The notes below the pieces were generated by a model. The model searched no databases. It saw only the letters and a program-made list of their open reading frames with translations, and had not been told where the DNA came from. A program made the position numbers and the translations under genes. From Chloroflexota bacterium (GTDB taxonomy: Bacteria > Chloroflexota > Anaerolineae > Aggregatilineales > UBA2796): DNA of 64,000 nucleotides. Position 1 is the stretch's first letter, and each line of letters starts with the position of its first letter. Location: NCBI GenBank assembly GCA_021325095.1, contig JAJPHV010000152.1, forward strand, positions 1-64,000, written 5' to 3'. This document shows positions 59,478 to 64,000 of this stretch, in pieces.

Positions 59478-61035
59478 GACATGCAAGAAAGAGAGAAGAC
59501 ACGGGACAATTTCCTGAGCAGTAGGGACTGTCAACAGGAAAAGGCCAATGTCTTCAGGTGAAAGTATATCGCAACGGCTACATGGGCAACTGGACGAGCT
59601 AATCGGAGAAATGCAGGCAGTCGAGGGCCAGCCAGCGAGTCTGCATGAAACGGAAGAACGGTTGTGGCGCTCGATGTTGGAGCTAGGGCGAGGGTTGCTG
59701 GAATTGCGGTTAGAAGCGTATCGAGAGGCAGAAGTCATTCAGGACGCGATAGAGGTGAATGGGGAGCGCTATGAGTACCAGCGGCAGCGGGGACGCCAGT
59801 ATGTGTCACTGTTTGGGGAGGCGCGGGTCGAGCGAGCGTACTACCTGAGCATGGAGCGGGGTGGATTATGCCCGATGGACGCCGCGCTGTCGCTGCCGGA
59901 ATTGAGTTATTCGGACAGTGTGCAAGAGCGGTTGAATGAACTCAACGTGTGGGTGCCGCAGGAGCGGAGCATTGCGCTGCTGGAGCGCTGGTTGGGCTTG
60001 AAAATCCCGAAAGGGTCACTGCAACGCAGCAGCGACCAGCAAGCGCTGTACGTAGAGGACTATTACGCGCAACGGCAGGTAGGGCCAGCGCCGGAGACAG
60101 ACAGCATTCTGGTGGTGAGTGCTGATGGAAAAGGCATCCCCATGACACGAGCCGACAGTCCGCCGCTTCAGGCGCGGCGCAGTAAGGGGCAGAAAAAGAC
60201 GGCTAAGAAAGAGGCTGTCGTGACCGCTGTATATAGTGTGGCCCCGTATGTACGGGAAAGCGCCAGTATTCTGACCGCGTTGCTCCCGGACCGGACCGAG
60301 CCAACCAAACCAACGCCGTCCCGTCCCGCGCCAAGCGACAAACAAACCTTTGGCACGCTGGACGGGAAAACGGCAGCGTTGAGCCACCTAGCGCAGCAAG
60401 TCGTCCGGCGCGACAGTCCGTTGTTGGTTCATCGCGTTGCGCTGACCGATGGGTCGGTGCCCTTGCAACAGCGCGTGCAGGAGCAGTTCCCCACCTTCAC
60501 CCTGGTCCTGGACATTATCCACGTCACCGAGCACTTGTGGGATGCCGCCAATGCCCGTTGGGGCGAAACCTCACCAGATCGCCTGTCCTGGATACGCCAA
60601 GCGCTCCGCTGGTTATTAGAGGACCAGCTTGATACGCTGCTGTTGGACTTGCACGCCCAAGCGCGTGACTTGTCCGCTGACAAGCACGAGGTCCTGCTTC
60701 AGGTGAGCGCCTACCTGAGCCGCAATCGGCCCTTCATCGACTACCAGCGCTATTTGGCCCTGGGCTGGCCCATTGGCACCGGGGTTATTGAGGGGGCCTG
60801 TCGTCATCTGGTCAAAGACCGCTTTGAACAGGCTGGAATGCGTTGGTCGAAAGCAGGTGCTCAGTCCCTGCTGGATTTGCGCAGTGTTGCCCTCAACGAC
60901 GATTGGGGCGACTTTCACCGCTTTCGTCGTCAACAGTCTCACCTTGAACGCTATGATTTCCCCTATCCTGATACTTTACCCGATATCCTCGCCTTGGAGG
61001 CTGCTGCTTAACCGTGACTCAAAATAGCCACACCC
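59461..61035 (+). mobile_element. ISKra4-type insertion sequence, 1,575 bp
   Basis: Inverted ends GGGTGCGGCTATTTTGAG and, complemented, GGGTGTGGCTATTTTGAG. A 9-bp direct repeat AAACCAATT flanks it (59452-59460 and 61036-61044). One transposase gene. Confidence 0.9.
59548..61011 (+). CDS. ISKra4-family transposase
   Basis: A 487-residue DDE transposase: helical N terminus, 'LFGEARVERAYY', a first catalytic Asp in 'ILVVSADGKGIPM', a second in 'FTLVLDIIHVTEHLW' and 'GWPIGTGVIEGACRHLVKDR' with the catalytic Glu. It appears intact. Confidence 0.9.
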   Translation: MSSGESISQRLHGQLDELIGEMQAVEGQPASLHETEERLWRSMLELGRGLLELRLEAYREAEVIQDAIEVNGERYEYQRQRGRQYVSLFGEARVERAYYLSMERGGLCPMDAALSLPELSYSDSVQERLNELNVWVPQERSIALLERWLGLKIPKGSLQRSSDQQALYVEDYYAQRQVGPAPETDSILVVSADGKGIPMTRADSPPLQARRSKGQKKTAKKEAVVTAVYSVAPYVRESASILTALLPDRTEPTKPTPSRPAPSDKQTFGTLDGKTAALSHLAQQVVRRDSPLLVHRVALTDGSVPLQQRVQEQFPTFTLVLDIIHVTEHLWDAANARWGETSPDRLSWIRQALRWLLEDQLDTLLLDLHAQARDLSADKHEVLLQVSAYLSRNRPFIDYQRYLALGWPIGTGVIEGACRHLVKDRFEQAGMRWSKAGAQSLLDLRSVALNDDWGDFHRFRRQQSHLERYDFPYPDTLPDILALEAAA

Positions 61036-61234: not shown

Positions 61235-61690
61235 CTAGCCAGGGAAAACCTCGCCGATCAAAGTTTCCACTTCTCCGAGCGTGATGAATTGCCAGGGATG
61301 TACGCCAGGAATCTCTGCATATTTCTCTGACCGTTCATCCCACCTGAGCGTCACAATGCTGAATTCTTCCGGGTAGTCGAGCGATAGGCCCTTGGTTTTC
61401 CCCGTTGCAAGATCACGCCCACGCTCAGGGACATGCTCTATCAGGTGGGTAAACTTGATGCCCAGATCGCGCCTGATATGGGTAGCCACATGCTCGATGC
61501 CGTTGGTAAGGCTGTAGACAAATTCATCGTCGGGGCCGTCATCATGGTCACCGTCAGGGCGAATTTTGTAACTTGCAATGGCTACAACTTCGCCGTCGTT
61601 CTCGTAAACGCGCAGGTGACACCAGCCCTCATTGCGCTCGTGATGGACCTGGTTGAACACAAACTCAGGTAAATCGTGAATTTGCGGCAT
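61235..61690 (-). CDS. Unknown protein at the end of the PRTRC-like cassette
   Basis: A 151-residue acidic protein with a beta-rich N terminus ('NEGWCHLRVYENDGEVVAIA') and a helical C terminus ('QFITLGEVETLIGEVF'). GGAGG precedes the chosen ATG. No family recognised. It is the last gene of the minus-strand unit after the ThiF-like protein and may be a lineage-specific partner. Confidence 0.5.
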   Translation of the reverse strand: MPQIHDLPEFVFNQVHHERNEGWCHLRVYENDGEVVAIASYKIRPDGDHDDGPDDEFVYSLTNGIEHVATHIRRDLGIKFTHLIEHVPERGRDLATGKTKGLSLDYPEEFSIVTLRWDERSEKYAEIPGVHPWQFITLGEVETLIGEVFPG

Positions 61691-61881
61691 GTTTGCGGTT
61701 TCCTCCTTATCCAATGCAGAACAACAGATGTCCTGACTCAGCAGGGTGGTTGCTGAACGGGCTGTCGCTTGGAGCATTCTCGAACGACGCACGCTGAGCC
61801 AGTGTCGTTCAGTGGTAGAAGAGGCTTTGGCTCGGCTTGACCGCGCTTGGGAACTGCTGAAAGGGTGTAGCGGAGAGATAC

Positions 61882-62664
61882 TTATCGAGCCAGGTACACA
61901 CGGAGGTTATCCGCTGTCAAGGGGATGGACTTTACATTTAGGGAGCCTGCATCGCAGAACGAAAGGAAAGTCGTCACAGGCTCATGATTCAACAACTTGT
62001 AAACGTATTGGGCGGCGACTGTTGCGATGAGATCATTGATGAGTAGGCTTTGAGCACCTGTTTCGACCAACTCTGCACACGATGCAGCCGGTTGCGGCAC
62101 TGGCGCTGGATCTGGTTCCAGCAGGGCCGGGAACAGCAGCGTGAAGTTGGGTAGATAGTGATATCTTCCGGTGTGGATGCACTGCCTCACCAATTCGAGA
62201 TCGTCCGTATTGCCCAGGACGATCTGACCCGACTCCGCATGATTGCCGCAATCCAGCGTCAGGCACTCGGCACGGGCTATCTCTCGGCGAGCCAGGTGAT
62301 TATCTACCGCACCGCAGATCAGACTGTAGCGCCCGGCGTGTTTGTCCGCGTCGAACGGCTCGTTAAACCATTCCACCGCCAGCCCCAAACTGTAGTTGAA
62401 ACGCCTGGCGAGCGATTCCGCTTTGTAAGCGCCTGCGTCCGCCTCAGCCTGTGTATAGAGCTGACGACCAACATTGCTGATCTCGATTCGGTCTGGATCA
62501 ACGATCCGGATCGTGGGTATGTGCTTTCGGCGACGCTTGAGGTCATACACGATACGGCAGATACTGCGCGCTAATTGCGAACCGGTGCCACCAGCGCCAA
62601 CCAGTACCACTTCCTGGATCATCTGCGGCGGATCAAAGCGAGCAGGTTGCGAGATCATGATCAC
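61882..62664 (-). CDS. ThiF-family E1-like enzyme of a PRTRC-type cassette
   Basis: Adenylating E1-like enzyme: GAGGTGS nucleotide loop (22-28), 'RIVDPDRIEISNVGRQLYTQ' with the conserved Asp and Arg, 'CGAVDNHLARREIA', and a C-terminal 'ASCAELVETGAQSLLINDLI' where the catalytic Cys is expected. The sequence pattern matches the ThiF member of PRTRC (ParB-Related, ThiF-Related Cassette) modules of plasmids and islands. Its ATG overlaps the stop of protein B by four bases. The missing gene between them is the JAB-domain protein A of standard cassettes. Confidence 0.8.
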   Translation of the reverse strand: MIMISQPARFDPPQMIQEVVLVGAGGTGSQLARSICRIVYDLKRRRKHIPTIRIVDPDRIEISNVGRQLYTQAEADAGAYKAESLARRFNYSLGLAVEWFNEPFDADKHAGRYSLICGAVDNHLARREIARAECLTLDCGNHAESGQIVLGNTDDLELVRQCIHTGRYHYLPNFTLLFPALLEPDPAPVPQPAASCAELVETGAQSLLINDLIATVAAQYVYKLLNHEPVTTFLSFCDAGSLNVKSIPLTADNLRVYLAR

Positions 62665-63377
62665 ATCCTTTCGCTGAACTTCTCCAGCAAGTCGGCCAGC
62701 GTTCCCTTGAAAGGAACGAGGTCGCGCTTGGGGTAAGTCCGCGCTTTCCGCGCATCGAGTTCAGTCAGCTTTTTGCGGATGTCTCCCGGCTCACTCTTGC
62801 TCTTGCCGCTGACGGAATGGGCCGTGAACGTGCTGCCCAGGAACATCCGCCAGTCCTCGGCCAGGTCATTCCGCGCTAAGGCTTCAGCGGAGACTTTGGT
62901 CACAGACCCCCAACACACAGCACCCTCGGCATAGATATTGGGCAAGGGAGGCACATACAACGGTATATCTAACGCCGTTGGGCGTTCCTTGACGGCGAAG
63001 ATGCCATACTTGGGGTGGTCATTGCCTGTGGTCATACGGATCATCAGCAAACCGGGCAGCGGCACACGAAATGGCGCATCCGAGCCATCAATAAAGATGG
63101 CCGTTCTTTGGGGCGGTCTGTAGCCGATTACTGTGCGGCGGACGCCCTCAACGCGCAGACAAATCGTGTTCGGATCGAGTATTCCCGTATCGAGTACCGT
63201 CCGAGCGGCAAGAGCCGAGGCGACTTGCGCCGGGTCAACTGGAAACTCGGTGAAACCGCCATTTTCAGTTGGACGACGCATAATCACCCCAAACGGATAG
63301 AAACTAAGGGTGAGGCTTGGCGGTGTCTGGATCATCGTAGCGAGCGTATTGGGGCCATTGAAGGGTTGTCCGGTCAC
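62661..63377 (-). CDS. PRTRC-type protein B (E2-like)
   Basis: Recognised by 'RTAIFIDGSDAPFRVPLPGL', then 'PLYVPPLPNIYAEGAVCWGS', the PRTRC protein B/prokaryotic E2-like pattern in which the Cys of 'VCWGS' is the suspected conjugation Cys. The GTG start follows GGAAGG at ideal spacing; an ATG 14 codons on lacks one. Overlaps the preceding gene at its 5' end and the ThiF gene at its 3' end, so all are co-translated. Function of the system is not established; a ubiquitin-like conjugation or plasmid-maintenance role has been proposed for the family. Confidence 0.75.
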   Translation of the reverse strand: MTGQPFNGPNTLATMIQTPPSLTLSFYPFGVIMRRPTENGGFTEFPVDPAQVASALAARTVLDTGILDPNTICLRVEGVRRTVIGYRPPQRTAIFIDGSDAPFRVPLPGLLMIRMTTGNDHPKYGIFAVKERPTALDIPLYVPPLPNIYAEGAVCWGSVTKVSAEALARNDLAEDWRMFLGSTFTAHSVSGKSKSEPGDIRKKLTELDARKARTYPKRDLVPFKGTLADLLEKFSERM

Positions 63378-64000
63378 GTTTCGCCTTCCTTCCTGTGATT
63401 AAGCCAATATTGTGCTGGAGAGCTTCTGCCCAGGCGTTGTCCTGTTCGAGTAATTCGAGTGCGCGCAAAGCTGAGGCACCCATTTCGTTAGCCTCTTCTT
63501 GTACGCCATTCATGTGCTGAATATCATCTGGCGTCCAGGGAGCAGTCTCTATCCCGGCATCCCACAGCATGTCCTGTGTGTAGTCCACCAAAGTGTTGCC
63601 GGACATACCGAACAGCCAGCGCAGCAGATTGGCGAGATCGGCGTGAGGGCAATCTTCGCCGTCAGGTTCGAGGCTGGCGATGAGTCGAGTGGCAACTTCT
63701 CTAGCCTGGTCCGCATTGCCCTTGGCTGGGATACCGAACCAGGCTGCGATAGGTACAAGTCGAGGGGCCATCTCGGCCAGTTCACCGAAGTATTCGTCCA
63801 CGTCAACGCCAAGGGCATCAAAAGGCACACCGAACTTGAATTCCTCAACGTCGTTCAACTCGGCGATCAGGTATCGGTTTGCGCCGTCGCAGATGGCCCG
63901 GTTGAGAGCTATGTAACCCTCACCACGCCATAGACGCTTTACCACATCAGCATATACGTCATGAAAGCAGACCCGGCAAACGGATAGCGCGTATTCCAAG
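63304..64000 (-). CDS. PRTRC-cassette protein upstream of B, possibly protein F (partial)
   Basis: The gene is open to the window edge, so its start lies outside. 231 residues are visible with 'YALSVCRVCFHDVYADVVKR', 'LWWTLHRT'-like helical stretches and an acidic C terminus. In standard PRTRC cassettes protein F precedes B, which is why I suggest F; I cannot confirm it from motifs. Confidence 0.45.
   Translation of the reverse strand, partial: LEYALSVCRVCFHDVYADVVKRLWRGEGYIALNRAICDGANRYLIAELNDVEEFKFGVPFDALGVDVDEYFGELAEMAPRLVPIAAWFGIPAKGNADQAREVATRLIASLEPDGEDCPHADLANLLRWLFGMSGNTLVDYTQDMLWDAGIETAPWTPDDIQHMNGVQEEANEMGASALRALELLEQDNAWAEALQHNIGLITGRKAKRDRTTLQWPQYARYDDPDTAKPHP

Follow-up and report, generated by a model that had tools for sequence, protein, structure and literature searches.

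A mobile PRTRC-like E1-E2-ubiquitin-like cassette of Chloroflexota lacks the JAB protease and encodes a tail-less ubiquitin-like protein

Bacterial operons of type 6d, described by Iyer, Burroughs and Aravind in 2006 (PMC1779556), correspond to the PRTRC system of NCBIfam (proteins A, B, C, E, F, ThiF and ParB). In that study the JAB-domain protein was always fused or adjacent to the E1 (PMC1779556). A locus of a Chloroflexota bacterium appeared to break this pattern: the original prediction noted protein B and a ThiF-like E1 overlapping by four bases, with no JAB protein A between them and a 151-residue protein behind them, and proposed a compact E1/E2 pair without a deconjugase. Is the protease really missing, and how might such a cassette work without it? 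The DNA analysed (the window) comprises the first 64,000 bases of contig C76, which is 102,134 bases long and belongs to a 6.58-Mb draft genome; as the cassette runs across the window edge, we followed it along the contig. Its features, numbered on the contig, are:

61238..61690, minus strand, orphan 151-residue protein (ATG from 61690 to 61238, preceded by the Shine-Dalgarno sequence AAGGAGG)
61882..62664, minus strand, ThiF-like E1 (TIGR03736, PF00899, invariant residues)
62661..63377, minus strand, protein B, E2-like, Prok-E2_D (PF14460, TIGR03737, conserved Cys)
63304-64152, minus strand (63304..64000 in the window), divergent protein F of 282 residues (F-position profile)
64149-64415, minus strand, possible 88-residue ORF upstream of F
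64401-65050, palindromic repeat array inside the operon, between C and F
65085-65312, minus strand, protein C, ubiquitin-like (Ubl), 75 residues, ending GRKG (TIGR03738, PF14454, homologue in locus L345)
65334-65789, minus strand, 151-residue protein in the place of E, assigned by position only

We found that the E1 and the E2-like protein are genuine, PRTRC-related and retain their active-site residues. The single-domain, 260-residue ThiF matched PRTRC_ThiF (TIGR03736) best among 13 models (E=3e-36; 125 bits, cut-off 145), as well as the ThiF family PF00899 (E=5e-16). Among proteins of solved structure it comes closest in sequence to UBA5 and other E1s, and the E1 profile also picks up the structures of Cap2 and BubCD. 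It contains GxGGTGS, which occurs with variants among 20 ThiF homologues, and Arg67-Gln68, Lys81, Asp121 and Cys196, which are invariant in them; Cys196 is the candidate catalytic cysteine. Profile searches gave a divided answer for protein B, which scored above the cut-off of PF14460 (E=7e-22) but below that of PRTRC_B, TIGR03737 (E=6e-18 over 183 residues; 65 bits, cut-off 131). Cys155 of B, in the motif GAVCWG, as well as Pro144 and Asn147, are invariant in 17 homologues, and B carries the downstream His (FTAH) described for its E2 family by Iyer et al. (PMC1779556). An AlphaFold2 model of B had a pLDDT of 84. With a GTG start of ThiF, the two genes overlap by GTGA (62661-62664), as had been predicted; an in-frame ATG two codons on would leave a 2-nt gap. 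Whichever start is taken, the junction has no room for any gene, so A is indeed absent from it, and the overlap or near overlap suggests translational coupling.

The view of the locus as a bare E1/E2 pair did not hold, since C and F adjoin in canonical order at and past the window edge. Apart from the missing A, the gene order, E?-C-F-B-ThiF, agrees with annotated plasmid cassettes. Reading past 64 kb was rewarded for C, which matched TIGR03738 (E=3.7e-4) and PF14454 (E=0.002), both below cut-off; the C protein of L345, 48% identical to it, passes the PF14454 cut-off. The AlphaFold2 model of C (pLDDT 77) has the beta-beta-alpha-beta-beta order expected of a beta-grasp. Foldseek searches of the C and B models against the PDB gave no significant match, so the folds of both rest on sequence profiles and predicted secondary structure. 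Judged by its conserved residues, the E1-E2-Ubl relay looks intact.

Protein F had no NCBIfam match. It was recognized by a profile built from 103 other proteins in the F position (E=5.6e-8; next ORF of the contig E=14), a profile not linked to the proteobacterial F, and it is 25% identical to the F of L345 (E=4e-9). Between F and C lie at least ten imperfect palindromic repeats of the GGAAGCTTTATGCTTCC type, possibly iterons, a partition site or an operator. The same reading past 64 kb was unrewarded for E and ParB: the NCBIfam models for PRTRC E and PRTRC ParB matched none of the cassette and neighbouring ORFs scanned. At the other end, the predicted 151-residue protein exists and begins about 190 nt after ThiF. 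It had no Pfam or NCBIfam match and no homologue among 400 genomes of the phylum, its own genome apart; it therefore probably lies outside the module, and we rejected it as a stand-in deconjugase on the same grounds.

We then asked how far the absence of A extends. A JAB profile built from relatives found nothing in all six frames of the 102-kb contig, and PRTRC_A (TIGR03735) had no match in the whole assembled genome, which extends the predicted absence well beyond 64 kb and rules against a JAB displaced within the cassette, as in locus L184, where it follows ThiF. As a control, TIGR03735 found A in all six JAB-bearing Chloroflexota genomes (G337, G110, G043, G288, G024 and G061), in which JAB adjoins B and ThiF, and also in Paraburkholderia. 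The same model found no A in three near-complete JAB-less relatives (G222, G260 and G267), on the L345 contig, or in the whole Pseudomonas aeruginosa and Vibrio plasmids tested. Some viral loci have longer gaps between B and ThiF that might have hidden a divergent JAB; this was rejected, the intervening ORFs being without a JAMM motif, and the JAB-less viral records tested contained no Prok-JAB above cut-off anywhere. Two loci listed as JAB-less from their ORFs (L039 and L041) were removed from that class after profile search found their JAB.

The claim that the system lacks a deconjugase stood, however, only as far as A is concerned, for two unrelated stand-alone Prok-JAB proteins, both bearing JAMM-type motifs, are encoded elsewhere in the genome, one on contig C139 (E=6e-24) and the other on C27 (E=7e-20). 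A host JAB might thus act in trans and leave the system as reversible and protease-dependent as other PRTRC systems. We consider this unlikely: neither protein matched PRTRC_A and just one reached E ~3e-4 with the JAB profile built here, both are on other contigs, and the tail-less C makes maturation in trans unnecessary.

The cassette is borne by a mobile element. The surrounding genes are (contig numbering):

58043-58972, XerC/D-like recombinase, adjoining the ISKra4-family transposase
59548-61011, ISKra4-family transposase, directly downstream of the module (NF033572, 249 bits)
67609-71550, methyltransferase-helicase fusion of 1313 residues, beyond the window, near the cassette
76031-79300, 1089-residue protein, adjoining the DUF4417 gene; no Pfam match in the portion scanned
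79290-80027, DUF4417 protein, beyond the window (PF14386, E=3e-50)
82758-84598, recombinase-like gene in two reading frames (184 and 407 residues), named by sequence reading, at the presumed element edge

Homologues of the methyltransferase-helicase fusion occur near the cassette in loci L045, L047, L049, L050 and L052.

To place the locus, cassettes were gathered from whole genomes, GTDB contigs, IMG/VR, plasmids and one phage, and classed by profiles for C, B, ThiF and JAB; the genome scan used a narrow alignment, so this sample leans to proteins with VGCGGTG. JAB was present in 67 of 67 GTDB-contig loci. JAB-less cassettes are common in IMG/VR, on dozens of contigs, and occur on plasmids of Pseudomonas (pTTS12 of Pseudomonas putida S12 among them), Vibrio, Alteromonas and Aeromonas. 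The nearest relative of the window cassette, L345, has ThiF, B, C and F proteins 49, 41, 48 and 25% identical to those described here; it too is JAB-less, with a C ending in GRKG, and the two form a clade of support 100 nested among JAB-bearing loci.

These relationships bear on the suggestion that the mobile element is decaying, that its JAB gene was lost by a recent deletion, and that the module is dying or dead. The transposase at 59548-61011, the split recombinase-like gene at the presumed element edge and the long branch of the window ThiF (1.89 in the tree) would all suit such decay. Yet L345, about half identical in sequence, shares both the JAB-less layout and the mature C, which argues that the state is old and maintained; besides, all invariant E1 and E2 residues are retained, and B and ThiF still overlap or almost do, as coupled genes would. 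Decay is accordingly quite improbable, and the JAB-less state is a stable variant.

If A is stably missing, what has changed in the rest of the cassette? Among loci in which both traits could be scored, C ended at the terminal Gly position in 91 of 91 without JAB, versus 41 of 183 with JAB, both sets including near-duplicates. In the remaining JAB-bearing loci, L045 and L050 among them, C runs from 1 to more than 100 residues past the conserved GxKG; in one JAB-less lineage (L103/L237), Ala takes the place of the terminal Gly. On a redundancy-thinned tree of 143 rows, tail-less C was found in 55 of 55 JAB-less and 26 of 88 JAB-bearing rows. As a single large clade holds most JAB-less loci, there are few independent losses: at least four changes of JAB state are required by supported branches, and the best tree has eight. 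In random sets of independent pairs, 3.4 of 4 showed a change of the C end that accompanied the change in JAB, and none showed the opposite change; a sign test was not significant (median p 0.25), as four pairs cannot reach significance. When a two-state model was fitted to the C end and simulated on the tree, none of 4000 runs gave the observed pattern. The clearest contrast is within a well-supported sister group, where C of L046, which has JAB, ends GTKG-ARA, whereas C of the JAB-less L139/L140 ends GTKG. Long pro-C tails often terminate in LGF, LGW or similar GF/AW endings (L040, L043, L061, L074, L080, L093 and others), as if their far C-terminus were under selection.

The rule is what one would expect of a processing role of JAB: a Ubl without its protease has to be made in mature form. 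Iyer et al. predicted a dual role for JAB, in Ubl processing and in removal from targets (PMC1779556), and BilC, a JAB peptidase, processes BilA so that its Gly is exposed (PMC11354881). The rule suggests that trimming the tag is one main job of protease A. The 41 JAB-bearing loci with a tail-less C, on the other hand, mean that maturation would not be its sole job, the additional one being, most simply, deconjugation.

We think it likely that the locus is a mobile E1-E2-Ubl cassette of the PRTRC kind (type 6d of Iyer 2006) that has stably lost A, the protein that matures pro-C, and in which C is encoded mature. From the gene content, the conserved residues, the absence of A and the C-terminal rule, all directly established, we infer the chemical steps, the role of F and the target as follows. 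C would be made with its C-terminal Gly already exposed. ThiF would adenylate C and then hold it as a thioester on Cys196; B would take C onto Cys155 and hand it on to the protein to be modified, a step in which F would probably serve as adaptor. In JAB-bearing cassettes, A would first trim the tail from pro-C and might also strip C from targets. Here no tail has to be cut, so conjugation would be constitutive, to be undone, if at all, by other enzymes. Because JAB-less lineages have persisted and diversified, conjugation without a dedicated protease is predicted to be viable. Against this reading count the scores of B, E1 and C below the curated cut-offs of the NCBIfam PRTRC models, and the failure of those models to match F. 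Sulfur-carrier chemistry, in which ThiF would adenylate C and C would end as a thiocarboxylate as in the ThiS/MoaD pathways, whose operons likewise do without JAB (PMC1779556), would suit a ThiF-like E1 and an exposed Gly but is very improbable, given the dedicated E2-like protein with its invariant Cys and a scan of neighbouring ORFs that showed no sulfurtransferase, no rhodanese and no metabolic gene.

How, then, should the mature-C cassette be classified? By NCBIfam models it is not a full PRTRC member, as A, E and ParB had no match and B, ThiF and C scored below threshold. Its architecture marks it as a divergent, JAB-less relative of the type 6d operon. Like that type it has a Ubl with a terminal Gly (C), F, whose alpha-helicity is taken from the type description, an E2-like B with the conserved Cys and downstream His, and a ThiF-like E1, in the same order and orientation and carried by a mobile element; unlike it, it has no JAB A next to the E1 and no recognized ParB, and its E is assigned by position only. 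The possibility, raised in the original prediction, that it represents a different type of Ubl modification system was not borne out, because the same JAB-less layout is found on IMG/VR contigs and gammaproteobacterial plasmids. The IMG/VR and the Pseudomonas, Vibrio, Alteromonas and Aeromonas plasmid cassettes share C-F-B-ThiF without A and a C ending at the Gly position. They belong to another clade, which means that JAB was lost independently, and the plasmid cassettes also differ in that they mostly keep ParB and E. JAB-less PRTRC cassettes are thus already present in public annotation; in the open literature, to which our search was directed (subscription papers lie outside it), we found no paper describing them, and our literature search found no function for PRTRC systems.

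Other bacterial conjugation loci were compared too. CBASS Cap2/Cap3 and Bub operons likewise encode E1/E2 conjugation, with E1 and E2 fused or otherwise arranged. A known anti-phage defence system was rejected, since the PADLOC E1-E2 models matched weakly and over the adenylation core only. BilABCD also combines a Ubl, an E2 and an E1, but it keeps a JAB, by which the Gly of the Ubl is exposed (PMC11354881). BilA contains two Ubl domains; the Ubl of the window cassette has a single one, and the E1 there is a minimal ThiF-like protein. The fused or extended E1 with a dedicated JAB that marks BilABCD and CBASS type II is thus not what we find here.

PRTRC genes are frequent on large plasmids and among IMG/VR contigs. 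The rule of no JAB, no Ubl tail sets a limit to the claim of 2006 that these E1s always come with a JAB, and it amounts to a natural experiment that parts the maturing from the removing role of the protease. It also predicts the active-terminus residue of C, and which cassettes should conjugate protease-free. The window cassette itself offers a minimal set of bacterial E1, E2 and Ubl for possible reconstitution in vitro.

As to a possible target, the gene just upstream of C often encodes a protein whose C-terminus resembles the motifs that bind the beta-clamp (QL[ST]LF; QLSLFG, QLTLF, QMTLF), as in L045, L047, L049, L050, L054, L058, L157, L166, L172, L185 and L203. In non-redundant loci, [LM]F was present in the last five residues of 25 of 146 upstream-of-C proteins versus 61 of 2030 other ORFs (p=6e-11), and the strict Q[LM].[LM]F in 9 of 146 versus 21 of 2030 (p=9e-5), the rows of these counts being not phylogenetically independent. 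The corresponding protein of the window cassette (65334-65789) ends PVTLSLF, a weak version of the motif. DnaN-like genes were found in the examined flanks of 40 of 162 non-redundant loci, and annotated dnaN, dnaX or holA adjoin several plasmid cassettes. We regard the motif and the proximity of DnaN as a lead, not a result. It is conceivable, though we rate it as rather doubtful, that PRTRC-type cassettes act at the sliding clamp of mobile-element replication, the JAB-less ones making the modification one-way; if true, this would be a bacterial parallel to the modification of PCNA by ubiquitin or SUMO. The 1313-residue methyltransferase-helicase fusion ends PQPVQLALF, a canonical-looking clamp-binding motif.

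Some relatives are arranged in unusual ways. The L184 contig, with the order C-B-ThiF-JAB, is labelled Candidatus Heimdallarchaeota; this may reflect misbinning or a genuine archaeal occurrence. On Alicyclobacillus plasmid p1 (L150:4060-5001, plus strand), C and JAB are fused in one frame upstream of ThiF. In L045 (9698-12993, minus strand), a group II intron-like insert, which encodes a reverse transcriptase, a maturase and an HNH domain, interrupts the B gene just ahead of the catalytic Cys motif.
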